A stretch of 64,000 bases of DNA from Bradyrhizobium barranii subsp. apii. GTDB lineage: Bacteria; Pseudomonadota; Alphaproteobacteria; Rhizobiales; Xanthobacteraceae. The DNA lies in assembly GCF_011516635.5 (NCBI RefSeq), contig NZ_CP096255.1, positions 2,540,501 to 2,604,500 on the forward strand. Direction: 5' to 3'. Made by a program: the position numbers and the translations under genes. Positions 3,408-37,858 of the stretch are shown here, in pieces (within the stretch, counting starts at the first letter, position 1; each line of letters begins with the position of its first letter). The notes under the pieces are model-generated. The model searched no databases, had not been told where the DNA came from, and was given only the letters and a program-made list of their open reading frames with translations.

Positions 3408-4712
3408 CTACGCGCCCGTGACGCGCCAGATCACGTTGCCGACGTCGTCGGCCATCAGCAGCGACTTCTTGTCGGGGCCGATCACGACGCCAACCGGGCG
3501 GCCGTAGGATTCCTTCTCGTCCGGGGACAGGAAGCCCGACAGGATGTCGCGACCGGGGCCGGAAGGCTTGCCGTTCTCGAACGGGATGAACACCAGTTTG
3601 TAGCCGGACAGCGTGCTGCGATTCCACGAGCCGTGCTGGCCGATCACCATGCCGTCGGGGAAGCCGGGCAGCGTGCCCGCCGGCATCCAGCACAGGCCGA
3701 GCGAGGCGGTGTGGCCGCCAAGCGCATAGTCCGGTTGAAGCGCCTTGGCGACCATCGCCGGATCCTGCGGCACGCGATCGTCGACCGTCTTGCCCCAGTA
3801 GCAATAGGGCCAGCCGTAGAAGCCGCCGTCGCGCACCGAGGTGAGATAGTCCGGCGGCGTCTCGTCGCCGAGCCCGTCGCGCTCGTTGACGACGGTCCAG
3901 AGCACGTTCGTATTGGGCTCCCACGCGAGTCCAACCGGGTTGCGCAGTCCCGCACCAAAAATGCGATGCGTGCCGGCGGCGAGATCGAGCTCATAGACCG
4001 CGGCGCGGCCTTCCTCGACCTCCATGCCCATCTCGGCGATGTTGCTGAGCGAGCCGACACCGGCATAGAGCTTCTTGCCGTCGGGGCTTGCGAGCAGGCT
4101 GCGCGTCCAGTGGCCGCTCGGCTTGAACGTCGTGAGCCGCTTGCCCGGCGCGGTGATGCGGTCGGCATTGGCGACATAGGGGAAGGCCATCACGCCGTCG
4201 GTGTTGCCGACATAGAAGGTGTTGCCGACCAGCGCCATGCCGAAGGGCTGGCTGAGGTTCTCCATGAAGGCGCCGCGCACTTCGGCGACGCCGTCGCCGT
4301 CCTTGTCGCGCAGCAGCGTGATGCGGTTGGCGCTGACGCCGAGCGCTGCGGCGCGCCGCATCGTCGCCTGCATCGCATAGTGAAACACCGACCTTGGCGC
4401 GCCCGCAATCTGCGTCGCCTCCGCGATCAGCACGTCGCCATTCGGCAGCACCTCGATCCAGCGCGGATGGTCGAGTCCAGTCGCGAACGCATTGACCTTG
4501 AGCCCGGGGGCGACCGTCGGCTTCTGCCCCTCGCTCCAGCCCCTGGCCGTCGGCATCTTCAAGGTCGGCAGCGCCCCCTGCGGCTTCGCTTCGGGAATCG
4601 CCGGCGCCTGGCCCCAGGCCGGCGCGGGCGCGGTGCCCGACAGCCGCCGCCATTGCAGCGCGGCACCGCCGATCAGCGCGACGAACTGCGCGAAGATGCT
4701 GGAAAAGGTCAT
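3408..4712 (-). CDS. PQQ-dependent sugar (sorbosone-type) dehydrogenase
   Basis: A 434-residue protein of the soluble-glucose/sorbosone dehydrogenase beta-propeller family, probably periplasmic or anchored by its N-terminal hydrophobic stretch (FAQFVALIGGAALQW). Family blocks are GLDHPRWIEVLPNGDVLIAE, FGAGLRNPVGLAWEP, GGFYGWPYCYWG and GQHGSWNRS. These enzymes oxidise aldoses or sorbosone with PQQ and pass electrons to the respiratory chain. The ATG at 4712 was preferred over one nine codons upstream because AGGGGA lies 6 nt before it. The gene is convergent with the aspartate dehydrogenase, with only 3 nt between the stops. The substrate cannot be told from sequence. Confidence 0.85.
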   Translation of the reverse strand: MTFSSIFAQFVALIGGAALQWRRLSGTAPAPAWGQAPAIPEAKPQGALPTLKMPTARGWSEGQKPTVAPGLKVNAFATGLDHPRWIEVLPNGDVLIAEATQIAGAPRSVFHYAMQATMRRAAALGVSANRITLLRDKDGDGVAEVRGAFMENLSQPFGMALVGNTFYVGNTDGVMAFPYVANADRITAPGKRLTTFKPSGHWTRSLLASPDGKKLYAGVGSLSNIAEMGMEVEEGRAAVYELDLAAGTHRIFGAGLRNPVGLAWEPNTNVLWTVVNERDGLGDETPPDYLTSVRDGGFYGWPYCYWGKTVDDRVPQDPAMVAKALQPDYALGGHTASLGLCWMPAGTLPGFPDGMVIGQHGSWNRSTLSGYKLVFIPFENGKPSGPGRDILSGFLSPDEKESYGRPVGVVIGPDKKSLLMADDVGNVIWRVTGA

Positions 4713-5076
4713 GGAAATCCCCTGTTGAACGTACGGCACAGTCCAACGACGGATCGCCCAAAGCCCCGCGCGGGCTCAGACCTTATCGTCGACCTCTCCA
4801 TATCCACGATGGGATGTCGTCGTGCCTTTTTGCGCGCGCATCCAACTGGGTAGCGGCAAAAAGGTCAACCGTTACGGAACTAGATCAGCGCCTATTCCCG
4901 AGGAATGGCAGCCGACCAAATTTGCATGGAGAGGAAAGTCAGCGGCCGATTTGCCGGTCCAGCCGCCGGCGCGAGCCTCTGCTCCTACGCTAGGCACGCC
5001 CAAAGGACGTTGCTGACTGATTTTCGGTGCCATTGCCCGCCGCGCGCCGTTACGACATCTCCAAGCATGCAACTGT
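4713..5076. other. Intergenic region without recognised gene
   Basis: About 360 bp between the sorbosone dehydrogenase and the CtrA-type box. It must hold the promoter of the minus-strand dehydrogenase gene. I see no convincing reading frame, RNA gene or terminator in it. Confidence 0.5.
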
Positions 5077-5092
5077 TTAACCATCCGTTAAC
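5077..5092 (+). promoter_or_regulatory. CtrA-type box TTAA-N7-TTAAC
   Basis: The bases TTAACCATCCGTTAAC match the full CtrA consensus TTAA-N7-TTAAC without mismatch. The box ends about 55 nt before the ATG of the coiled-coil protein gene at 5148, a normal promoter distance. CtrA is the cell-cycle master regulator of alphaproteobacteria. Regulation of this gene by CtrA is inferred, not shown. Confidence 0.6.
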
Positions 5093-5147
5093 CATAGCTA
5101 TTCATGATACTGCCCGTGTATGTGTGTTCGCGACGAGCTTGAATTGC

Positions 5148-5630
5148 ATGGCGCAGCGTGGTTCCAGAGCGCCAGTTGGAGGGGATGAGGGCGTCCTGAG
5201 CTTTCCCTCACCGCTGGCACCAGACAAGGGAGCAACGGCTCTCGATCTGGTATATCAAGCGGCCGATGTCTTCCGCGATATGGAGAAGCACGCCCGCGTG
5301 ACCGAAGCGCGTGCCCAATCACTTTGCACGAGCGCCATAGAAAGATTGCGGCTGGCCGAAGGGCGAGCGGAGGCCGCCGAGCGGGCACAGCGTGAACTCA
5401 CCGTAGCCACCCAAACTAAGCTGCAAGATGCTTGCCGAGCGCTGGAGCAAGCCCAGTGCTGCATTGAAGCTCAGAAGGATAAGTTGACGGCCGTAGAGCT
5501 TCGCGCCGAAGTTGCGGAAGCCGAAGCGCGACAAGCCAAGGAAGCGCTCGCGCTCGTTGAAGAGGCCATTCGCAAGCGTCTGCTTTGCGCAAATCCGCAT
5601 GCCGATGGCAGGTTGGCAGCGGTAGCCTGA
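5148..5630 (+). CDS. Hypothetical coiled-coil protein
   Basis: A 160-residue protein not assigned to a named family. After an N-terminal part (MAQRGSRAPVGG) comes GATALDLVYQAADVFRDME. From about residue 60 to 145 there is a long Ala/Glu/Arg/Gln-rich heptad region, with segments such as LRLAEGRAEAAERAQRE and ELRAEVAEAEARQAKEAL, that should form a coiled coil. No signal peptide or membrane helix is seen. The frame is open further upstream, but the ATG at 5148 was chosen because it lies downstream of the CtrA box and starts the conserved-looking part. A structural or scaffold role in a cell-cycle-controlled process is only a guess. Confidence 0.6.
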   Translation: MAQRGSRAPVGGDEGVLSFPSPLAPDKGATALDLVYQAADVFRDMEKHARVTEARAQSLCTSAIERLRLAEGRAEAAERAQRELTVATQTKLQDACRALEQAQCCIEAQKDKLTAVELRAEVAEAEARQAKEALALVEEAIRKRLLCANPHADGRLAAVA

Positions 5631-5857
5631 TCAATTGCGACTGCAATGACTCACTGGGTGCTACCGCGCGGGCAGGCGCGGAGCGGGCGAACTCACCCTG
5701 CTGTGAGCCTGGCGGTAGCCACCGCCTTCAGCATTTGAAATCGGGCGGGATGGGGTTCGACCCAAATAGGGCCGGTGCAGCCTGAGAGGCTCATTTTACT
5801 TACGGGACAACACCCCGCGTTACCCGCGCGCGCCAATTCCAATGACAGAGCCAAACG

Positions 5858-5873
5858 ATAACGAACCATTAAC
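5858..5873 (+). promoter_or_regulatory. CtrA-like box (ATAA-N7-TTAAC, one mismatch)
   Basis: ATAACGAACCATTAAC differs from TTAA-N7-TTAAC at one base. Before the IS256 insertion it would have stood about 80 nt upstream of the small gene at 7391. The IS now separates box and gene by about 1.5 kb. Confidence 0.4.
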
Positions 5874-5937
5874 CATGTTGGGCTATCTGGAGAATTGGGC
5901 ATTCGGGGCGCGTGTGCTGGCTTGCGGGCCAGCCGGT

Positions 5938-7365
5938 GGGGATGTCCCGGGTTCTGTTGAATTTCTGAAGAGGTCGGCGTTGCCCACCTTGAGCCGGTAG
6001 GCTCGGGGTGCTGATTCCACAAAGGAGAGCAACGCCATGACGAGAGATATCACACCGGCTGGTTGGCCGGCGACCGGGGCTGTGGAGAATCATTTGCGGA
6101 AGTGCGAGCGAGCTTCGATCGGTTCTGCCTTGCGGCAGGAATCGAGGCGCTCGGCACGATGATGGAGGCGGATGTGACAGCGGCCTGCGGGCCGCGCCAC
6201 GGTCGTGATGCGGCGCGGCGGGCGCACCGTTGGGGCCGAACGCGGGGGCGGATCGGTTTCCACGGCGGCAAGATCGAGGTCGGTCGCCCGCGGGTCCGGG
6301 GCATGGACGGCCGCGAGGTCACGATCCCGAGCTGGGAAACGGCGGCGCAGGAGGACTGGCTCGGTCGCTGGGCGATGAACCTGATGCTGATCAATGTGTC
6401 GACGCGCCGGTTCGGCCGCGCCGTCCGGCTGCCCGAGGGTGACGTGCCGGCACCGCCCGGATCGGGGATTTCGAAGTCGGCGGCCTCGCGGAGGTTCGTG
6501 GCTCTGTCGGCGGCGCGGCTGGCCGACTTCATGGCTGCCGATCTGTCCGCGCTCGACCTTCTGGTGGTCCAAATCGACGGGCTGCATCTCGACGACGATC
6601 TCGTGCTGGTGGCCGCGATCGGGGTTGACGGCGAAGGCAACAAGCATCCGCTGGCGCTGGTGGAAGGGGCGACCGAGAATGCAGCAACGGTTCAGGCCCT
6701 GCTGGACAACCTGGTCTCGCGCGGGCTCGACCCGACGGTGCCAAGACTGTTCATCGCCGACGGCGCGAAGGCGTTGTCGAAGGCGATCCGCCGCACCTTC
6801 GGTTCGGCCGCTGCGATCCAGCGCTGCCAGATCCACAAGGCGCGCAACATCATGGAACGCCTGCCGAAAGAGCATCATGCGGCCACCCGCCGGGTGCTGC
6901 GCCAGGCCTGGGAGCTCGATGACGCCGACAAGGCTGAAAAATTGATCCGCAATCTCGCGCGTCGACTCGACCAGCAATGGCCCGGCGTTGCGGCCAGTAT
7001 CCTCGAAGGCCTCGACGAAATCCTGACTGTCGTCCGGTTGAAGTTGCCGAAGGAGCTTCGCCGATCGCTCGCCTGTACCAATATCGCCGAGAACATGATG
7101 GGCACCATTCGCCGCGTCACGCGCAACGTTAAACGCTGGCGGGATGCCGGTATGGCCTTGCGATGGGTCGCGGCCGGTATGATCGAGGCCAACAAGGGCT
7201 TCCGACGATTGAAGGCGCATAAGCAATTGTCGGTTCTGCGTGCGGCCCTTCAAGCTCACCACGATCGCATGACAATCAAGTCCGTTGCCCACGTCACGAG
7301 GGCTGCGTAATATTCATTCCGGCAACGTCGACCCGACGTAGTTCAACAGCGATCGGGACATCCCC
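5938..7365 (+). mobile_element. IS256-family insertion sequence with 8-bp target duplication
   Basis: A 1428-bp element bounded by imperfect 24-bp terminal inverted repeats. The left end at 5938-5961 begins GGGGATGTCCC and ends TTGAA; the right end at 7342-7365 matches its complement at 20 of 24 positions. The 8 bp CAGCCGGT occur directly outside both ends (5930-5937 and 7366-7373), which is the target duplication expected for IS256. The element carries one mutator-type transposase gene. It sits between a CtrA-like box and a small gene at 7391. Confidence 0.93.
6063..7310 (+). CDS. IS256-family (mutator-type) transposase
   Basis: The conserved frame gives about 415 residues with the family's DDE catalytic domain. 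Asp is in VVQIDGLHLDDD and in RLFIADGAKAL, RCQIHKARN follows, and Glu lies in TNIAENMMGTIRRV. The well-placed start is elsewhere: an ATG at 6037 preceded by AAAGGAGA begins MTRDITPAGW but is in another frame. The conserved frame opens only from a TTG at 6063. This suggests a small indel between 6037 and 6063, so the N-terminus is probably damaged or made by a weak start. The rest of the protein looks complete. Confidence 0.88.
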   Translation: MAGDRGCGESFAEVRASFDRFCLAAGIEALGTMMEADVTAACGPRHGRDAARRAHRWGRTRGRIGFHGGKIEVGRPRVRGMDGREVTIPSWETAAQEDWLGRWAMNLMLINVSTRRFGRAVRLPEGDVPAPPGSGISKSAASRRFVALSAARLADFMAADLSALDLLVVQIDGLHLDDDLVLVAAIGVDGEGNKHPLALVEGATENAATVQALLDNLVSRGLDPTVPRLFIADGAKALSKAIRRTFGSAAAIQRCQIHKARNIMERLPKEHHAATRRVLRQAWELDDADKAEKLIRNLARRLDQQWPGVAASILEGLDEILTVVRLKLPKELRRSLACTNIAENMMGTIRRVTRNVKRWRDAGMALRWVAAGMIEANKGFRRLKAHKQLSVLRAALQAHHDRMTIKSVAHVTRAA

Positions 7366-7390
7366 CAGCCGGTAGCGTAGGCGTGGACCC

Positions 7391-7597
7391 ATGGCCCTTG
7401 ACCCGGAAGAACTCGTCACCCTGACAGATCACGGCTCGATGAAACTGCGCGCGGCAGTATCGCGCGCGATGACGTTGCCACCCAAGGAACGCAAGCGGAC
7501 GACAATCGTCCGCGAGGGTGAACCGGCGATCCTGCATTTCGAGCAGATCAAAAACCTTGCGGCGCGGTGGAACGAACGGCTCGCGCCAATCGACTGA
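7391..7597 (+). CDS. Small hypothetical protein separated from its promoter by IS256
   Basis: A 68-residue soluble, charged protein starting MALDPEELVTLTDHGSMKLR and ending ERLAPID. It has no signal peptide, membrane helix or recognised domain. Codon use resembles its neighbours. The IS256 target duplication ends 17 nt before its ATG, so native upstream signals, including a CtrA-like box at 5858, have been moved away. Whether it is still expressed is unknown. I do not recognise the family. Confidence 0.5.
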   Translation: MALDPEELVTLTDHGSMKLRAAVSRAMTLPPKERKRTTIVREGEPAILHFEQIKNLAARWNERLAPID

Positions 7598-7818
7598 CTA
7601 GTTTCGCTGTGCTGGTGTCAATCGAGCCCCGAGCCCCCAAAAGAGGCGGCCCGTGCACGGCCTCGTCGACCCTCGGTAAGCATGAGTTTGATGCCGGTCG
7701 CCGCATGCGGATTACCGTTCGTTGCGACCTGCGTCCGCGAAGGCCGCCGAGATTTCTCGCAATGAGCGCCGACCGCCCTTGGGCCGCACCCGCACGACTC
7801 ATGGCTTCCGCTGCCCCG
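7598..7818. other. Intergenic region without recognised gene
   Basis: About 220 bp between the 68-residue protein gene and the CtrA box. Short frames cross it on both strands, but none has a ribosome-binding site together with protein-like content. Confidence 0.4.
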
Positions 7819-7834
7819 TTAAGATTTCATTAAC
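7819..7834 (+). promoter_or_regulatory. CtrA-type box TTAA-N7-TTAAC
   Basis: TTAAGATTTCATTAAC is a mismatch-free match to the CtrA consensus. It ends 56 nt before the ATG of the DUF2934 gene at 7891, almost the same distance as the box before the coiled-coil gene at 5148. Confidence 0.6.
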
Positions 7835-7890
7835 CCTACTGGAGCAAGTCTTTTGGCCGGGCTGGGCGGATCATTCGCAAGGAAAATCCC

Positions 7891-8097
7891 ATGCCAAATC
7901 TGGAAGAGGCAATTCGCGAGCGCGCCTACCACCTCTGGGTCGCCGATGGGCAACCCGACGGAAAGGCGGAAGTCCATTGGATGCATGCTCAATACGAAAT
8001 TCTCGAGACGTCAGTTGCAAGCCCTGCTGTGGCTGACATCGTAGTGACAAAACCCGCCAGAAGGGTGCGATCCCCGAAAAAGCAAAACTCGCGCTAA
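7891..8097 (+). CDS. DUF2934 family protein
   Basis: A 68-residue protein whose N-terminal half, IRERAYHLWVADGQPDGKAE followed by HWMHAQYEIL, matches the DUF2934 family signature (RERAYxLWxxxGxPxGxxxxHW). The C-terminal tail is basic (ARRVRSPKKQNSR). Members are small cytoplasmic proteins common in rhizobia and of unknown function. A perfect CtrA-type box precedes it. The ATG at 7891 is the only reasonable start. Confidence 0.82.
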   Translation: MPNLEEAIRERAYHLWVADGQPDGKAEVHWMHAQYEILETSVASPAVADIVVTKPARRVRSPKKQNSR

Positions 8098-8360
8098 CGG
8101 GTCCAGCGCGAGGACGTGCGCCATTCGCAATTCGGTCGGCGGGCTGCCGGTCGTCGTTAGAAATGACATCCAACGATGCGGGAATTGGCAGCCTCGCTAA
8201 CCCAAATTTCTTCGAGAGGAACAGACAACAACACCTAGACTATTCGTCGGGTCGGCAGTTCAATTGGCATTGGTTGATCGAGTCGGTTTCTCGCACCATC
8301 CAGCGCCGAGAGCGACGAGCGCCGACGTGACCAGAGCCAATGGCAACCAGTGTCCGACGG

Positions 8361-8420
8361 GACCAGCGTCCATAAGGCCAGCGTCAAAGAGGCCAGGGTC
8401 CAGAAGGCCAGCGTAGAGCG
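8361..8420. repeat. Four imperfect 15-bp tandem repeats
   Basis: Four consecutive 15-base units follow the pattern GGCCAGCGTCNANAA: 8361-8375, 8376-8390, 8391-8405 and 8406-8420. The period is an exact multiple of three, so either strand would encode a pentapeptide repeat (plus strand ASVKE/ARVQK/ASVER), but no convincing gene surrounds it. Confidence 0.7.
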
Positions 8421-8516
8421 AGCATCAACCCTGCAAGCAGCCCGCCAAGTCTGCTCGCAGCCCAACTTGGCAAGACACGGCAAGGCCTTTGCCAGCGAAG
8501 AGCCTTTGAGGCTTTT

Positions 8517-8547
8517 GGGACCATCGGTTACTCCGATGGTCCCTTTT
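8517..8547 (+). terminator. Factor-independent terminator
   Basis: A perfect 11-bp stem, GGGACCATCGG pairing with CCGATGGTCCC, has a 5-base loop and is followed by TTTT. A weaker AGCCT/AGGCT hairpin with its own T run lies just upstream (about 8502-8516). The only T tract is on the plus strand, so it would stop a transcript coming from about 8100-8500, where no gene is evident. Confidence 0.75.
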
Positions 8548-8715
8548 CATTGTGGTGCCATTGGCGCGAGACATCGGGCGGCTGTTGCTTCCGCGTTCAC
8601 CATGCAATCGAGCGAGGAACGCTATTTGATCGTCGCGTGCACAGTGATTGCCGACGTGCCAGAAGCTGTCGGTCCCTGACCCGTCGCTTTGATGGCAAAG
8701 GTATCGCTACCCTTA

Positions 8716-9651
8716 GTGTCTGTTCCAAAACATGTTGAGTCGAATGAATCGGTTGTGATTCAAGGTGAGCGGCCTGATTCGATGGGGACGCGCCGCCAAT
8801 GTGGACTACCGAGAACCGTGCACGCTACGACCGCAGCCGCCTGCGCTATCCGAGCGACTTGACCGACGAGGAGTGGGCGCTGATCGCGCCTCGCATCCCG
8901 CCGGCCAAGCGCGGCGGCAACAAGCGTACGGTGGACCTGCGCGAGATTGCCAACGGGCTGATGTACATCCTGAGCACAGGTTGCCAGTGGCGCGCGATCC
9001 CCAAGGACCTGCCGCCGCGCTCGACGCTGTATGGCTACTTCGATCTGTGGAGCTGGAACGGCACGCTCGATAAAATTCATCACGCCCTCTATGTCGAATG
9101 TCGCGAAAGGGCCGAGCGCGAGGCTTCTCCCACCGCCGCCATCATCGATAGCCAGAGCGTGAAAAGCGCTGAAAAAGGGGGCCTCATGATCTCCATGGCT
9201 ACGACGCGGGCAAGAAGATCAAGGGCAAGAAGCGGCACATTCTCGTCGACACGCAAGGCCTCTTGATGCACGCCATCGTGCATGCGGCGGACATCCAGGA
9301 TCGCGACGGCGGCGTGCTCCTGATGGCAACGTTGTTCGGCCTCTATCCCTTTCTTCTGAAGCTCTACGCCGACGGCGGATATCAAGGGCCACATTTCCAG
9401 AAGGGGCTGCGTAGCGCTCTGAAGCGCGTGAACCTCGAAATCGTCAAACGCTCCGATCAGGCTCACCGTTTCGTCGTCTTGCCCAAACGCTGGATCGTCG
9501 AGCGTACCTTTGCCTGGCTCGGGCGATGCCGAAGACTGTCCAAAGATTGGGAATGCTTCAATCACAGGGCGCTCGCCTTTCTCAAGCTGGCCTCCATCCG
9601 ACTCATGCTGCGAAAGCTATGCAATCCAAGGTAATCTTTCCGGACAGACTC
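8716..9651 (+). mobile_element. IS5-family (IS427-group) insertion sequence with TTA duplication
   Basis: A 936-bp element. The left end is GTGTCTGTTCC; the right end, read inward, is GAGTCTGTCCG. The target trinucleotide TTA is present on both sides (8713-8715 and 9652-9654), as expected for the TNA target preference of this group. Fusing the flanks restores the reading frame of the pseudogene it interrupts. Confidence 0.88.
8799..9634 (+). pseudogene. IS5-family transposase in two frames
   Basis: Frame one (8799 to about 9180) gives MWTTENRARYDRSRLRYPSD to IIDSQSVKSAEKGG, with the first catalytic Asp in IIDSQS. Frame two (-1) continues HDLHGYDAGKKIKGKKRHI, then LYADGGYQG with the second Asp, and VERTFAWLGRCRRLSKDWE with the catalytic Glu. 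The switch lies in an A/G run (GAAAAAGGGGGCC, about 9169-9182). Programmed -1 frameshifting occurs in some IS5 relatives, but the codon phase here does not give a good slippery heptamer, so a one-base loss is more likely. All three catalytic residues are present across the two frames. Confidence 0.8.
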
Positions 9652-9939
9652 TTATATTTGGCCTTCGCCTTGTATTCGAACGTAGACAGGTTGACCCTTT
9701 TCAGCTTGCCGTGTGACGGCTTTTGAGAGATGTCCGAGCCACTCACCGTGCCGCGTATCTTGATTGGAAATTGGCAACTTCCTCCGGACGTGAGGTCAAT
9801 GTCGGCCGTCGAGTTCTCGCCCCAATCCGCTAGTGTGCCTGAGATTGAGCATTCAGAAACGGCCGCCGCCCGAGATACAGACAGTAGGCTTGGACAAGCT
9901 AGCGATGAGCGCCAACGCGGCGACCTTTGACAACTGCAT

Positions 9940-10173
9940 AATAGGCTTCTCCGTAGCGTTGTCAGTTTACGGACTTCACTCCTCTGGCACCACGGCTAGG
10001 GCTAGGCGCATGCCCTCGCAGACCCGCTCTCGTCCTGCGAGATATTTCGTATCGTCGCTTGCTTGGCTGACAAGCAAGCGACTGATGGTAAAACTTGGAT
10101 CGAGCGCAAGTCCGACACTAGCAGTAACGTCGTGCAGAGAAAGCGGAACGCAGCGACCGCGCCTTCAGGACGC
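9940..10173. other. Intergenic region
   Basis: About 230 bp holding the upstream region of the minus-strand secreted-protein remnant. No gene, terminator or operator could be recognised. Confidence 0.4.
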
Positions 10174-10800
10174 TCACCGCGGCGATAGGAACGGAATGAT
10201 CATCGGCACGCGGCGGCAATAGGCGCCGTAGGCGTCTTCGCCGAGCTCCTTGGACAGAAACACCTCTTCCATCCGGCCCTTCTGCCACATGCCGAGCGAG
10301 ATCAGGATGGCGCCGAGGATCGTCGTTACGAGGCCGATCGCGATGCCGGTGACGAGCATGCCTGCAATCAGTCCCGTGTAGATCGGGTGACGCACGATGC
10401 CGTAGGGGCCAGTGTCGATAACGCGGTGGTCTTCCTTGTGGGTGATGGTGTTGGACCAGAATTTTCCGAGATGCAGCCGGCCCCACCAGGCGAAGGCGAT
10501 GCCGGCGGCCGAGAGGACCGCGGCGATGTAGATGCCGGTGTTGCCGAGCACCCAGAGCGGCTTCCAGCCCAGGACCTGTGCAACCCACGGCGTGTACAGG
10601 ATTCCGCCGACCAGGATCGGCAGGCGATAGCGCTGCGACTCCAGCGTCATGACCTGCTTCTGGGTGCGGCCCTGCCAGAACGAGGCGCCGACCCAGCTGG
10701 CGAGAAAGGCGAGCCAGATCAAGGCCAGGAGTTCGGTCGGCCAGGTCGTGGTCCAGCCACCCCAGGCCACGGAGAGAAGCTTGCTGAAATCGAAGGACAT
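10174..10800 (-). CDS. Isoprenylcysteine carboxyl methyltransferase (ICMT) family membrane protein
   Basis: A 208-residue integral membrane protein with about five hydrophobic segments. The C-terminal catalytic signature is clear: DTGPYGIVRHPIYTGLIAG (the RHPxY motif), followed by EEVFLSKELGEDAYGAYCRR. Bacterial relatives are SAM-dependent methyltransferases or related lipid enzymes; none has a prenylated-protein substrate. The ATG at 10800 was chosen because the protein-like sequence begins there (MSFDFSKLLSVAWGG) and upstream codons lie within the next gene. It is the last gene of a three-gene operon, 28 nt after the epimerase. Confidence 0.82.
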   Translation of the reverse strand: MSFDFSKLLSVAWGGWTTTWPTELLALIWLAFLASWVGASFWQGRTQKQVMTLESQRYRLPILVGGILYTPWVAQVLGWKPLWVLGNTGIYIAAVLSAAGIAFAWWGRLHLGKFWSNTITHKEDHRVIDTGPYGIVRHPIYTGLIAGMLVTGIAIGLVTTILGAILISLGMWQKGRMEEVFLSKELGEDAYGAYCRRVPMIIPFLSPR

Positions 10801-10828
10801 GAAGGTTCTTTGCGTTTGGGCGGAGGCC

Positions 10829-11860
10829 TTAGCTCGCGCGCGAGGAAAGCGCGTGATGCTCGATGGCGCCGGAGGGCCGCTGGCCGTTGCGGGCGAGCAG
10901 ATGGGTGATGGTTTCGCGCAAGACCGGTTCGATCGGGCGCGGCGCGTAGCCGAGCTCGGTGCGCGCCTTGCCGATCGAGAGGTCGCTCGCGGCAAGCGCG
11001 ATGCGCACGCCCTCGGCGGTGCCGTTGGGCGGCCGGCGCGTGATGCGATCGGAGATGGATTCGAGCATGATCGCGGAGAGCTCGGCGATCTTGCCGGGCA
11101 CGACGACCGGGAACTGCCGGCGGCCGCTCATCGCCGACATCATCCGCAGGATGTTGCCGAGCGGGACGCAGTCGCCGCCGAGGATGTAGCGCTGGCCGAT
11201 GCGGCCGCGCTCCATGGTCAGCACAAGGCCCATCGCGACGTCGCGGACATCGACGAGATTGACCAGGAAGTTGAGATGCGGCTGCACCTTCTTCTGGAGG
11301 AAGTACCACAGCATTGCGGTCGGCGGCGTCAGGTTGTGGTCGGCGGCGCCGATCGGCATGGTCGGCGTGCCGATCACGAGCGGAAAGCCCGCGGCCGCCG
11401 CCTTCGCGGCGTGGTGCTCGGCGAGCGACTTCGACCGCGTATAGGCGCCGGGCATCGCATCGGCCGGCTGCAGCGCCTCTTCGGCGGCAACGCCGTTGAG
11501 GTCGGAATAGGGGAATAGGATCGATTCCGTCGAACAGTGCAGGAAGCGCGACACGCCGCGCTTCATCGCCGCGGCAAGCACGATTTCGGTGCCGCGGCAA
11601 TTGACGTCGTGGAAGTCCTGCTTGTTGGCGACCCACATGCCGGGCAGGCCGGCGAGGTGATAGACCTGATCGACACCGGCGATCGCGGCCTCGACCGCGG
11701 TACCGTCCAGCACCGAGCCGTGGATGTGTTCAACGTCCGCGTTCGCTGCGGCCGGCGCACGGACATCGAGAACGCGTACCCGCTGCCCACGGGCGCGGAG
11801 CGCTTCTACAAGATGATGTCCGATGAAGCCGCTGCCACCGGTAACCAGTACGAGAGCCAT
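10829..11860 (-). CDS. NAD-dependent epimerase/dehydratase (extended SDR)
   Basis: A 343-residue cytoplasmic oxidoreductase. The cofactor-binding start MALVLVTGGSGFIGHHL has the extended-SDR GxxGxxG. DQVYHLAGLPGMW and HCSTESILFPYSDL follow, and the catalytic YxxxK is in AYTRSKSLAEHH. The family acts on nucleotide sugars, dihydroflavonol-like compounds or sterol/hopanoid-type lipids. The neighbours, a DUF962/Mpo1-like protein 29 nt upstream and an ICMT-like methyltransferase 28 nt downstream, favour a lipid substrate, which is inference. The ATG at 11860 directly begins the Rossmann fold; the open frame upstream is not protein-like. Confidence 0.85.
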   Translation of the reverse strand: MALVLVTGGSGFIGHHLVEALRARGQRVRVLDVRAPAAANADVEHIHGSVLDGTAVEAAIAGVDQVYHLAGLPGMWVANKQDFHDVNCRGTEIVLAAAMKRGVSRFLHCSTESILFPYSDLNGVAAEEALQPADAMPGAYTRSKSLAEHHAAKAAAAGFPLVIGTPTMPIGAADHNLTPPTAMLWYFLQKKVQPHLNFLVNLVDVRDVAMGLVLTMERGRIGQRYILGGDCVPLGNILRMMSAMSGRRQFPVVVPGKIAELSAIMLESISDRITRRPPNGTAEGVRIALAASDLSIGKARTELGYAPRPIEPVLRETITHLLARNGQRPSGAIEHHALSSRAS

Positions 11861-11889
11861 GCAGAAGGTTTGCTGTTTCGCTTCTAGAG

Positions 11890-12426
11890 CTATCGGGTTG
11901 AAAGGGAATTGGTCGGAAGAGGCGCCAAAATCGCGGCAAGGTCGCGACGGAAGCCCAATGCAATGAATAATTTCGCCATGACAAACATCGGTCCAAGCAG
12001 GAAATGCGCGGGGTGGTCGACCATCGACGGCTGCCGTTCCTCGAAAACCCTGTGGCCCACGATCTGCGCCGCGACGCCAAATCCGATCAGCACCGCAAAA
12101 ATCGACCACATCATGACGATCGAGGCCTGATTGCCGATTGCGGTTGCGACCGAAAGCAGCACGGTCATCGCGGCAAGGATGCCGAGTCCAATCCCGGCGT
12201 CCAGCATCAGCCAGTAAACCAGCACCGGCAGGGCCGCAACCACGGCCAGGCTCACCTCGATCCCGAAGATGGGAAAACGCACGAGGGTGAGCGGCAGCAC
12301 GGCGCCGGTGAAGAGCAGGAGGATTCCGACCACGTGCATCGCGCAGTTCCAGGGATCGCGATGATATTCGACGTAATCGGCCAGTTGGCGTTGAAAATAA
12401 CCAGCCATCTCGGTCTCGTGCAGCAT
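11890..12426 (-). CDS. Mpo1-like (DUF962) membrane protein
   Basis: A 178-residue protein with four predicted membrane helices and the DUF962 signature YVEYHRDPWNCAMHVVGILL. Its spaced His residues and the later HPAHFLLGPMFVMAK segment are typical. Yeast Mpo1 is an iron-dependent dioxygenase that shortens 2-hydroxy fatty acids; bacterial members are uncharacterised. Two starts are possible, 12426 (MLHETEMAGYF) and 12408 (MAGYF), and neither has a strong ribosome-binding site. It is the first gene of the operon with the epimerase and ICMT-like genes, suggesting an alpha-oxidation or hydroxy-lipid modification role. Confidence 0.8.
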   Translation of the reverse strand: MLHETEMAGYFQRQLADYVEYHRDPWNCAMHVVGILLLFTGAVLPLTLVRFPIFGIEVSLAVVAALPVLVYWLMLDAGIGLGILAAMTVLLSVATAIGNQASIVMMWSIFAVLIGFGVAAQIVGHRVFEERQPSMVDHPAHFLLGPMFVMAKLFIALGFRRDLAAILAPLPTNSLSTR

Positions 12427-12577
12427 GGGGTCGGGGAAGGGCGAGAACTGGCTATAGCACCTGATAGGGCAGTGCACAAACCGGCTCGCGTGTCGCGCAA
12501 AGCATGGCTGTTGCGCTTTCGACAGGCCGCAAAACGGTCGGAACTTCAAAGAGTTCCGTCAGGGGAAGCGATCTCGC

Positions 12578-13240
12578 TCAGCGCTTCTTGGCGGGCTTTT
12601 TCGCCGCAGGCCCGGGCGCCGCAGCTGGATGCGCAGGCGCCTCCTCCGGCACCTTGGCATAGGTCAGGATTTGCAACTGACCGTTGACCGTCGAGGTCGG
12701 CTTGGCCCGGTCGAGAAACTGCTCCTCGCCGAGGCCGATCGGATGCAGCCGCTTGGTCGAGATCTTGAAGGTGTTCACCAGGACGTCGCGGATCGCATCG
12801 GCGCGTCGCTGGCTCAGGATCGCATTGGCCTCGCGCGTCTTCACATTGGATTCGACATGGCCGACGATCAGGAACGTGTACGGCAGCAGCGAGGAGTTAA
12901 CCAGCGCGTCCGCGATGCGGCCGACGGTCTGGTAGGACGCGGGCTGGATGATCGGCGTGTCGGCGTCGAACTGGATCTGCGCGTTGAAGGCGGGCAGGTT
13001 GGCGAGGTCAGGCGCGATCAGCGGGCGGTTCACTGGACCCGGATCGTTCTTGATCCTGGCCTTGGCGCGCTCCATCACCTGCTGCTTCAGCGCGGGAAGG
13101 TCGACCTCGGCGGCCTGTTCGAAATGGTTCAGCTTGCCGACGATGTCGTCACGGGTCGGCGCCGCCGTCTGCGCGCTTGCTGCGCCCGCGAGCAGGGCCA
13201 GGACCACGACCAGCGTGATGGCGATTCCGTTCGCGCGCAT
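12578..13240 (-). CDS. Exported OmpA-like domain protein
   Basis: A 220-residue protein. Residues 1-24 are a signal peptide (MRANGIAITLVVVLALLAGA, cut after ASA). A helical spacer follows, and residues about 85-190 form an OmpA-like peptidoglycan-binding fold: FDADTPIIQPASYQTVGRIA, VGHVESNVKTREANAILSQR, and RLHPIGLGEEQF. The tail is rich in Pro, Ala and Lys (AAAPGPAAKKPAKKR). The ATG overlaps the stop of the upstream Cys-rich gene (TGATG), so the two are translationally coupled. Likely periplasmic, tethered to peptidoglycan. Confidence 0.82.
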   Translation of the reverse strand: MRANGIAITLVVVLALLAGAASAQTAAPTRDDIVGKLNHFEQAAEVDLPALKQQVMERAKARIKNDPGPVNRPLIAPDLANLPAFNAQIQFDADTPIIQPASYQTVGRIADALVNSSLLPYTFLIVGHVESNVKTREANAILSQRRADAIRDVLVNTFKISTKRLHPIGLGEEQFLDRAKPTSTVNGQLQILTYAKVPEEAPAHPAAAPGPAAKKPAKKR

Positions 13241-13656
13241 CACCGATACCCCGCGTCGTCGACGGCCTTCAGGCAGTTGTTGCTGATGCCCTTGGGCGTC
13301 GAGACCAGACAGGGGATCGACTTGCTGGTCTCCTTGGTCGAGCCGCCGCAGACCTTGACGATCTCGCGCTGGCAGGCGTTCGCCACCGTGACGCGCGCGG
13401 CGACGCGCTTCTGGATGGCATCGAAGGCGCCGAGATAGTCGCTCTGGCATTGCTGCGAGAGCACGTCGCGGTTGCGGGACAGGCACTCTTTCAGCCGGGT
13501 CGAGTCCGGGTTGACGCCGCGGCAATTCGCGACGATTTCCGCGCCGCAGCTCTTGGCCAGGAGCCCGATCGAATCGCCAAAGCTCATGGTCTCCGCCGCC
13601 GCTAGCGACGGCATAACCAATGCCAGCAAGATCAGTGTGATGGAGCCCCGGACCAT
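13240..13656 (-). CDS. Exported cysteine-rich repeat protein (GLG1-type)
   Basis: A 138-residue protein with a signal peptide (MVRGSITLILLALVMPSLAA). The mature part has regularly spaced cysteines: SCGAEIVANCRGVNP, LKECLSRNRDVLSQQC, ACQREIVKVCGG and PCLVS...NNC. These match the cysteine-rich GLG1 repeat family that bacteria export with unknown function. The ATG at 13656 begins the signal peptide; a TTG 12 codons upstream is less likely. It is coupled to the OmpA-like gene by a 1-nt overlap, which suggests the two act together in the envelope. Confidence 0.78.
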   Translation of the reverse strand: MVRGSITLILLALVMPSLAAAETMSFGDSIGLLAKSCGAEIVANCRGVNPDSTRLKECLSRNRDVLSQQCQSDYLGAFDAIQKRVAARVTVANACQREIVKVCGGSTKETSKSIPCLVSTPKGISNNCLKAVDDAGYR

Positions 13657-13744
13657 GGGCGCATCTGATACGGGGAAGTTCGCGGTGGTCAAGGGGCGTT
13701 CGGGCGAGAACTGTCGAACGTCCGGCTAGTGCGGCGAACAGTCC

Positions 13745-35428: not shown

Positions 35429-37858
35429 ATGGGCGGTCGGGGTCAGAACGATCAGGATCGGGAACGTAGGACCGGATGGTGGCGTGCCGCGCCGCTGCTC
35501 GGACTCTATCGCCCTGCGCTCGTCGCAGTCGGCGTCGGTCTTCTGTTCTCGCTCGTCGGCGCCGCCGCCGTGGCGCGATGGGAAAACCGCGTCAACAGGA
35601 TCGAGTTCGAGAACGCCGCCGAAACCGAAGCCATCGTCATGCAGAACGGCATGAGCGAGTACATCTCCAGGCTCGTCGCGCTGCGTACGCTGTTCGAATC
35701 GACCAACGAGGAAATCACCCGCAGCGAATTCGAGACCTTCAGCTCCCGGCTGTTCGAACGTCATCCCGGCATGCTGCGCATCTCCTGGCTGCCGCGCGTC
35801 AACCGCAAGGAGCGCGCCGAATACGAGGCCGCCGCGGCCACGGACGGCGTGTCCGGCTATCGCATCAAGTCGCTCCAGGGCGAGACCTTCGCGACCGCGC
35901 CGCAGGCCGATGAATATTTCCCGGTGTTCTACTCGACCCAGCCGAAGACGTCGTCGGTCTATGGCATGGATTACGCGACCGTTCCAGAGCGCCGCGCAGC
36001 CCTCGAGCGCGCGCGCGACAACGATCGCGTCGCCGCCATTCGCACACGCCTCTACGAGCCGAAGGAGGGTGGCCGGCAGCCCGACGTGCTCGTTGCCATT
36101 CCCGTCTACGCCAAGGGAACCTCGCGCGAGGCGGTGGCGGACCGGCGCCGCAATCTGGCGGGCTTCGTCGTCGGCGTCTTCGACCTGCCGCTGCTGATCC
36201 AGTCCATTCGCGTGACCACGGGAGCAAGCCCCGCGGTCAGCGTGAACGTCTATCCGCCTTTCACGGGACAGATCGTCAGCCTGGAACAAACCCTGCCGGA
36301 CTATGCGTCGGCCTCCACGTCGCCGCAATCGATGCGGGACGTCGCCCGGGCGCTGCACTGGTCGGGCAGCCTCAAGATCGGGGATACCGACTGGCAGGTG
36401 CGCGCCATGCCGACGGCCGGCGGTTCGCTGGAGACGGCCTACGACCGCGCCGTTGCCGTCATCGTCGTCGGCATGCTGCTGACGCTGTCGCTCGCAACCT
36501 ATCTCATGCTCGCCAGCCGCAACTCGCGGCGGCTGTCGCTGGCGAACCGGCGGGTGCTGGAGCTCGCCCAGACCGACATCCTGACCGGGCTGCCGAACCG
36601 CGCCTTCTTCCTCACCCGGCTCGACATGATGAACAGCCAGTTGGGCGTGCGGGGCCTGCCGTTCGCGATCCTGATGCTCGATCTCGACCGCTTCAAGAAC
36701 GTCAACGACTCGCTCGGCCACGGTGCGGGCGATGCGCTGCTGCGCCAGGTGGCGCTGCGGCTGAGATCCGCGCTGCGCGCCACCGACGTGCTGGCGCGGC
36801 TCGGCGGCGACGAGTTCGCCATCATCCAGGAGGCTTGCGACGATCAGCGGGCCTGCGCGACCGAGCTCGCCGCGCGGATCGCGAAGCTGGTCGCCGAACC
36901 GTTCCTGCTGCCCGGCCATCGCGTCGAGATCGGCACCAGCATCGGCATCGCGATCGCACCGGACCACGGCAGCGACCAGGAGCAGCTGCTGAAGAAGGCG
37001 GATCTCGCGCTCTACCGCTCGAAATCGGCCGGCCGCAACTGCTTCACCGTCTACGACGAGGCGATGTCGGCCGAGCTCGAGGCCCGCAATACGCTGGAAG
37101 GCGATCTGCGCGATGCCATCGCGCAGTGCCAGCTGGAGGTGCACTATCAGCCCTTTGTCGACGTCGCCGGCGGTGGCCGTCGCGGCTTCGAGGCGCTGGT
37201 GCGCTGGCGGCATCCGAGCCGCGGATTGATCCCGCCGGACCAGTTCATCGCGCTTGCCGAGGAAACCGGGCTGATCGTGCCGCTCGGCGAATTCGTGCTT
37301 CGGCGCGCCTGTGCGGACGCCGCCGCCTGGCCATGCGATTTCATGGTTGCCGTGAATCTGTCGCCGATCCAGTTCAAGGAAGCCGAGCTGTTCGAGACGA
37401 TCTGCGCGGCGCTGGCAGATTCCGGCCTGGCGCCGCAGCGGCTGGAGATCGAGATCACCGAATCCGTGCTGCTGGAACGCGGCGTCGAGAACCTTGCCTT
37501 CATGGAGCGGTTGAAGCACATCGGCATCGAGCTCGCGCTCGACGATTTCGGCACCGGCTATTCCTCGCTCAGCTATCTGACGACGTTCCCGTTCGACAAG
37601 ATCAAGATCGACAAGTCCTTCATCCGCAACCTCACGCATCAGCCGCGCAGCTCCGCGATCATCGCCTCGATCGTGACGCTCGCACGCGGACTCGATATGT
37701 CGGTTACTGCCGAAGGCGTCGAGACACGCGAAGAGTTCGAGCGGCTGACGGCGCTCGGCGTCAATTTTGCGCAAGGCTATCTGTTCGGACGCCCGCAGCC
37801 GGTCGACCAGATCGAGTTCGACGCGCCCGTCCGGGCTTCGCAGCGCGACGCGGCCTGA
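35429..37858 (+). CDS. CHASE-GGDEF-EAL cyclic-di-GMP turnover protein
   Basis: An 809-residue inner-membrane signalling protein. The N-terminal helix (ALVAVGVGLLFSLVGAAAVA) precedes a periplasmic CHASE domain (about residues 60-340; HPGMLRISWLPRVNRKERAE, SVYGMDYATVPERRAAL). A second helix (VIVVGMLLTLSLATYLML) leads to GGDEF (LARLGGDEFAII, near residue 458) and EAL (GFEALVRWRHPSRGLI near 587, with LALDDFGTGYSSLS and KIDKSFIRNL). Both active-site motifs are intact, so it may make and degrade c-di-GMP. The ligand of the CHASE domain is unknown; the divergent periplasmic binding protein is a candidate partner. Confidence 0.92.
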   Translation: MGGRGQNDQDRERRTGWWRAAPLLGLYRPALVAVGVGLLFSLVGAAAVARWENRVNRIEFENAAETEAIVMQNGMSEYISRLVALRTLFESTNEEITRSEFETFSSRLFERHPGMLRISWLPRVNRKERAEYEAAAATDGVSGYRIKSLQGETFATAPQADEYFPVFYSTQPKTSSVYGMDYATVPERRAALERARDNDRVAAIRTRLYEPKEGGRQPDVLVAIPVYAKGTSREAVADRRRNLAGFVVGVFDLPLLIQSIRVTTGASPAVSVNVYPPFTGQIVSLEQTLPDYASASTSPQSMRDVARALHWSGSLKIGDTDWQVRAMPTAGGSLETAYDRAVAVIVVGMLLTLSLATYLMLASRNSRRLSLANRRVLELAQTDILTGLPNRAFFLTRLDMMNSQLGVRGLPFAILMLDLDRFKNVNDSLGHGAGDALLRQVALRLRSALRATDVLARLGGDEFAIIQEACDDQRACATELAARIAKLVAEPFLLPGHRVEIGTSIGIAIAPDHGSDQEQLLKKADLALYRSKSAGRNCFTVYDEAMSAELEARNTLEGDLRDAIAQCQLEVHYQPFVDVAGGGRRGFEALVRWRHPSRGLIPPDQFIALAEETGLIVPLGEFVLRRACADAAAWPCDFMVAVNLSPIQFKEAELFETICAALADSGLAPQRLEIEITESVLLERGVENLAFMERLKHIGIELALDDFGTGYSSLSYLTTFPFDKIKIDKSFIRNLTHQPRSSAIIASIVTLARGLDMSVTAEGVETREEFERLTALGVNFAQGYLFGRPQPVDQIEFDAPVRASQRDAA

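Follow-up and report, generated by a model that had tools for sequence, protein, structure and literature searches.

In yeast Mpo1, conserved histidine residues bind iron, Fe(II), and the 2017 work of Kitamura is said to place this enzyme in the phytosphingosine degradation pathway. To our knowledge, no role has been assigned to bacterial Mpo1-like proteins. The yeast protein, and with it the family PF06127, we take to be a 2-hydroxy fatty acid dioxygenase, presumably as described in Kitamura 2017 and Mori 2020. The Mpo1-like protein of the window (the whole stretch of DNA analysed here, 64,000 nucleotides from a genome of 10.58 Mb) resembles yeast Mpo1, compared via the family rather than via an aligned sequence, in its score over the Pfam cut-off, in conserved His, Asn and Glu positions and, according to an AlphaFold model (pLDDT 84.6), in being a small multi-helix membrane protein. 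No usable match to this model was found among PDB folds, and no solved relative was found by sequence at E <= 1. Unlike the yeast gene, the window gene shares its operon with genes for an extended SDR and an ICMT-like methyltransferase.

The best curated family of the SDR is HpnA (TIGR03466), followed by SdmB and OleD. In excerpts of PMC12583986, the role of HpnA is described as not established. The SDR scores 259.9 bits against TIGR03466, under the cut-off of 367.65, as do the SDRs of L106, L176 and L220 (268.3, 249.9 and 272.0 bits); the HpnA of G039, one of the relatives searched (see below), scores 489.7. That HpnA matches the solved protein 3wj7 strongly, and 3wj7 is also the best solved relative of our SDR. 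Because 3wj7 was deposited as an oxidoreductase, we lean towards a predicted redox role for the SDR over that of a sugar epimerase. Its nucleotide-binding glycines and YxxxK motif are kept in 9 of 9 aligned rows. The two proteins are nevertheless only about 35% identical, and the locus lies outside any hopanoid cluster, with uvrD, Cys-rich, OmpA and hydrolase-like genes as neighbours; the HpnA of G039 adjoins genes that we take to be HpnK-, HpnM- and HpnN-like.

The third protein resembles ICMT in exceeding the cut-off of PF04140 and in carrying the RHPxYTG and EE motifs, which are kept in 9/9 and 32/32 rows of two alignments, and its sequence matches the solved ICMT 4a2n at E 1.2e-5. It differs in failing the equivalog cut-off of NF040696 (protein-S-isoprenylcysteine O-methyltransferase), with 54.7 against 160 bits. 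Its AlphaFold model (pLDDT 69.8, too poor to interpret) gave no usable fold match in the PDB.

At the level of alleles, other two-class systems spread by recombination exist in bacteria. The pneumococcal competence pherotypes are an example (PMC5629823). The locus studied here is like the pherotypes in having two divergent classes at one locus that are moved between lineages by recombination. The pherotypes are a signal, whereas here two putative lipid enzymes of one operon are concerned; moreover, the two dimorphisms flank a non-dimorphic gene and are seen between species, with one genome each.

Layout and conservation of the operon

The three genes occupy 12426-10174 of the window on the minus strand (Table 1). 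Gaps of 29 nt between the Mpo1-like gene and the SDR gene and of 28 nt between the SDR and ICMT-like genes, as claimed in the original prediction, were found at 11861-11889 and 10801-10828, and its superfamily calls (a DUF962/Mpo1-like protein, an extended SDR and a membrane methyltransferase) are borne out by Pfam scores over the cut-offs. Translation of the Mpo1-like gene probably begins at 12408 rather than 12426, because the second in-frame ATG is the one present in every row of an alignment of 77 upstream regions. A TTTGT...TATAG pair occurs upstream of the operon in 12 of the 17 displayed rows of the upstream alignment. The promoter assigned to it remains tentative, because a consensus promoter scan returned nothing just upstream of the operon and TTGTGC-17-TATAGC is absent from its output.

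Table 1. Features of the three-gene locus, in window coordinates.
Feature	Position	Strand	Basis
Mpo1-like gene, 172 aa	11890..12408; ORF reaches 12426	-	PF06127 57.3 bits (cut-off 24); start at conserved ATG
Extended SDR gene, HpnA-like, 343 aa	10829..11860	-	Epimerase 106.2 bits (20.9), 3Beta_HSD 85.8 bits (22)
ICMT-like membrane methyltransferase gene, 208 aa	10174..10800	-	PF04140 40.9 bits (cut-off 24); PF04191 (PEMT) 34.4 bits, over cut-off
Dimorphic segment of Mpo1-like gene (window is class A)	11981..12400	-	Raised between- minus within-class distance, ~0 either side
Dimorphic segment of ICMT-like gene (window is class a)	10301..10780	-	Class divergence lies here; gene ends alike
Sigma-70-like promoter TTGTGC-17-TATAGC, tentative	12451..12479	-	TTTGT...TATAG pair in upstream alignment

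Just upstream of the operon, two overlapping genes on the same strand (12578-13692) code for a Cys-rich-repeat protein (PF00839) and an OmpA-domain protein. Downstream, the ICMT-like gene is separated from a sorbosone-dehydrogenase-like gene at 3408-4739 by about 5.4 kb (4740-10173), which contain one transposase of the Mutator type (6063-7310) and a split one of the IS4/5 type (8799-9634); this distance is about 0.2-0.8 kb in six main-clade loci (L035, L036, L060, L062, L063 and L065).

We searched 60 relatives, comprising 36 genomes of the same genus, Bradyrhizobium (host included), and 24 from other families of the order. The genes were found in 27 of the 36 same-genus genomes, and in all 27 carriers they are adjacent and in a single order. 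Counted singly among the 60 relatives, Mpo1 has 27 carriers, the SDR 28 and ICMT 32; the 28th SDR match is the HpnA of G039 (35% identity), and the five surplus ICMT matches are weak. A contig search for the SDR yielded 136 relatives, the best 80 of which were taken as named loci; 72 of these 80 have Bradyrhizobium in the record title, and 76 hold the whole trio. The other four are two loci at contig ends (L144, L150), an additional SDR copy that stands alone in B. jicamae (L153), and a Pseudolabrys MAG (L176) with Mpo1 and SDR genes but no ICMT, beside an ssb-like gene. The Mpo1 and SDR genes overlap in 14 of the 76 complete loci, abut in one and lie at most 34 nt apart in 75, and no more than 75 nt separate the SDR and ICMT genes in 75 of 76. 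Order and adjacency are kept beyond chance, and the tight three-gene operon proposed in the original prediction is real and conserved across genomes.

A full trio at 43, 56 and 52% identity is also carried by a Xanthobacteraceae MAG of another genus (L106/L143). The neighbourhood of uvrD, Cys-rich, OmpA and trio genes is conserved as a whole, and gene order is common to BTAi1 (L220) and the main clade and, as far as the ICMT side is concerned, to L106 as well; a mobile module was rejected on these grounds, and the common order points to mainly vertical inheritance. One record titled Frankia sp. RB7 (L198), probably a mislabelled Bradyrhizobium, has a trio 89-95% identical to that of the window. 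Across the class, PF06127 was found in 96 of 337 genomes. We fetched 26 long-type Mpo1 loci from the rest of the class (PF06127 matches spanning about 410-440 nt) and found no SDR or ICMT of the trio kind near them, so most Mpo1 relatives appear to work without such partners. The trio is a unit of its own family and not the general context of Mpo1.

All three genes are missing from 9 of the 36 same-genus genomes. uvrD was detected in eight of the nine, with uvrD, Cys-rich and OmpA genes in place in four, and the trio was not found in the stretches beyond uvrD in any of the eight. A single branch of the uvrD tree sets these eight genomes apart, so the absence may go back to as little as one event and cannot be taken as support for functional linkage. 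This grouping also led us to reject, as proof of linkage, the co-occurrence of a LysM hydrolase-like gene, which is present in 27/27 same-genus carriers and 0/9 non-carriers, with one further weak match in G050. In BTAi1, L106 and more divergent Bradyrhizobium (5720-7809 in L220, 3255-5022 in L106, 1125-2096 in L038), two related genes for secreted, hydrolase-like proteins, one of them with LysM, converge on the trio; in the main clade they sit farther from it.

Two allele classes in the Mpo1-like and ICMT-like genes

The most notable property of the trio, unforeseen in the original prediction, is a dimorphism of its Mpo1-like and ICMT-like genes. We compared the window with 37 of the 80 named loci (n = 38), a B. 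japonicum-like main-clade set defined by SDR >= 84%, ICMT > 80% and a match starting at 4001, with L143 removed as itself a query. Nucleotide distances of Mpo1 are bimodal, at 0.104 within and 0.238 between classes, with 1 of 703 pairs falling between 0.16 and 0.20; those of ICMT are likewise bimodal, with a dip at 0.10-0.12. The divergence is confined to one segment of each gene (Table 1), the gene ends being alike, and the SDR, OmpA, Cys-rich and uvrD genes differ little by Mpo1 class. All four combinations of Mpo1 class (A, B) and ICMT class (a, b) occur (Aa 10, Ab 4, Ba 14, Bb 10), and the distances of the two genes show a rank correlation of 0.01. Residues without overlap between classes number 20 in Mpo1 and 12 in ICMT; the SDR has 0 of them, whichever label is applied. 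Eight of those in Mpo1 (124, 126, 127, 129-132 and 136) adjoin the conserved E123 and H135. Two loci outside the main-clade set, L207 with its incomplete flank and L219 at 78%, fall with class B in the Mpo1 tree, which has 76 rows against 77, L220 being missing from it.

A second set of 16 genomes, which overlaps the named loci (for example, contig 5 of G022 is L215, B. betae) and is not independent of them, gave between/within ratios of 2.36 for Mpo1 and 1.91 for ICMT, whereas none of 10 nearby genes exceeded 1.33. Among the 17 other genes of window 169-46624 that could be scored, SDR included, the ratio in the 16 genomes reaches at most 1.42; in this regional scan, 21 of the 40 query genes were represented in fewer than 10 genomes and left unscored. 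A control gene at 35429-37858 has a small clean split into groups of 3 and 10 genomes, with a ratio of 1.42, well below those of Mpo1 and ICMT.

The possibility that the Mpo1 classes are paralogues was rejected, as 24 of the 27 carriers have one Mpo1 copy. In G001, G017 and G028, the extra copies share 53-57% identity with the query and resemble neither class, so they are not class paralogues. Among the literature matches listed, with most subscription journals outside the scope, we found nothing on the operon for DUF962/Mpo1 or for ICMT in Bradyrhizobium, and nothing on such alleles in that genus.

Exchange, age and possible maintenance of the classes

On a tree of the flanking DNA and SDR, the classes need at least eight changes for Mpo1 and at least six for ICMT, and each class as one clade is rejected by the AU test (p 7.1e-31 and 1.5e-6, respectively); an origin of the dimorphism in lineage splitting was rejected by this tree. 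The class changes of the two genes show no association on it, a comparison of 7 independent pairs with little power. Close pairs of loci reveal how local the replacements are: L201 and L202 have 88-100% identity per 100 bp along the flanks and drop to 66% inside Mpo1, and L218 and L205, of a common Mpo1 class (95-100%), drop to 69% inside ICMT. Allele segments smaller than a gene have repeatedly been exchanged between species.

In the centre of Mpo1, A and B differ by a pS of 0.495 and a pN of 0.199, either class differs from the outgroup L219 by a pS of 0.45 and 0.46, and the SDR has a pS of 0.28. For ICMT, the between-class pN is 3.8 times and the pS 1.4 times the within-class value; L184 and L185 are included in this comparison and excluded from the Mpo1 pS class means. 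In the Mpo1 tree, class A splits before B, L219 and L172, the node uniting L172 with B being weak (0.484). The allele classes are intermixed among species and older than the species, as in trans-species polymorphism, with weaker evidence of age for ICMT (pS 0.323) than for Mpo1. Judged from these sequences, the pattern fits old alleles that may have been maintained or repeatedly re-imported.

A rival explanation of the dimorphism is that neutral recombination with divergent, unsampled relatives brought in the second classes and that no selection keeps them, for which we see the chances as evenly balanced. Homologous recombination in Bradyrhizobium core genes is reported (PMC3538991), one genome per species cannot reveal within-species frequencies, and classes B and b are common to early branches (L184, L185), which leaves room for A and a having come in later. 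Against neutral import, at least eight and at least six changes fall in two genes of one operon, and neither the SDR nor 16 further genes have such a pattern; the ICMT between-class pN is raised far more than the pS; and the breakpoints lie inside genes whose ends are conserved. Balancing selection on the classes is plausible, in a sample of one genome per species. A fuller version, in which such selection would keep two Mpo1 and two ICMT specificity alleles across Bradyrhizobium species, reassorted as cassettes into at most four lipid variants that a phage, a competitor or the legume host discriminates, seems to us unlikely. The swapped classes do hint at a lipid that differs between strains in a way that matters. 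Should both classes be kept by selection, the targets of diversifying selection would include a bacterial membrane lipid alongside surface antigens and signals.

A putative lipid-tailoring pathway and its rivals

A lipid-tailoring operon is the best reading of the trio, its chemistry being predicted from protein families. The full scheme, which we hold tentatively and consider slightly more apt to fail in some part than to be right throughout, is that of a co-transcribed operon tailoring one hydrophobic substrate at the inner membrane, inherited mainly vertically and with recombining allele classes. The Mpo1-like protein would act as a metal-dependent oxygenase and shorten a 2-hydroxyacyl lipid by alpha-oxidation. 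On the same molecule, a hydroxyl or carbonyl would be oxidised or reduced by the HpnA-like SDR, and the ICMT-like enzyme would use SAM to methylate a carboxylate or hydroxyl. In the B. japonicum-like clade, homologous recombination would swap the classes between species as cassettes of a few hundred bp, with the SDR not dimorphic. We infer the co-transcription, the order of steps, the common substrate and a difference between classes in substrate preference. The hydroxylated or polycyclic membrane lipid suggested in the original prediction is a reasonable candidate substrate and is compatible with the evidence.

The catalytic motifs of all three enzymes are intact. In Mpo1, Y12, H16, N21, H25, D70, H119, E123 and H135 (numbered from 12408) are invariant in 76/76 trio rows. 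In a wider alignment, H135 is not conserved throughout, and in a wider 15-row set two of H16, H25 and H119 are invariant, the first being lost in the lone copy L052. Against this scheme, each protein matches at superfamily level only, the methyltransferase is dispensable in L176, which has Mpo1 and SDR alone, one same-genus clade lacks all three genes, the 26 long-type Mpo1 loci suggest that most Mpo1 relatives do without such partners, and neither AlphaFold model yielded a usable fold match.

A hopanoid substrate, with the SDR as the Bradyrhizobium stand-in for HpnA and the trio modifying the side chain, for example for a hopanoid-lipid A conjugate, appears rather improbable. Excerpts of PMC12583986 report shc in all Bradyrhizobium genomes. 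When the best 29 candidates per genome were scored, the trio SDR came out as the most HpnA-like one in all 27 carriers, and within the 36 genomes of the genus no SDR exceeded the HpnA cut-off. However, the trio SDR itself is under that cut-off and outside any hopanoid cluster, and the nine trio-less same-genus genomes also have no HpnA above it, even though all Bradyrhizobium are said, in those excerpts, to hold shc.

We find it similarly improbable that the operon is catabolic and serves to break down the 2-hydroxy fatty acids of plant sphingolipids in soil and root, with Mpo1 performing alpha-oxidation and the other two enzymes processing or masking the products. The place of yeast Mpo1 in phytosphingosine degradation and the plant- and soil-associated hosts would suit this reading, but the operon showed neither a transporter nor a beta-oxidation gene or regulator, the methyltransferase would have no evident role, and the conserved housekeeping-like promoter, itself tentative, does not suggest induction. 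That the three genes are neighbours by common descent only and serve separate pathways is very improbable: synteny alone is weak evidence where uvrD, Cys-rich, OmpA and the trio are all conserved, and L176 does without ICMT, but the Mpo1 and SDR genes touch or overlap in 15 of 76 loci, and the trio is intact in L106 despite different genes on the Mpo1 side.

Under the preferred lipid-tailoring reading, the stability of the operon reduces the problem to three genes and a single substrate. For a comparison of substrate range, natural variants are at hand in the two classes, and close species pairs differ in class at one enzyme only. Extra Mpo1-like copies at L052, L054, L057 and L108 are 53-57% identical to that of the window; two of them are followed by degenerate SDR remnants, and the copy at L052 has Arg at the first conserved His.
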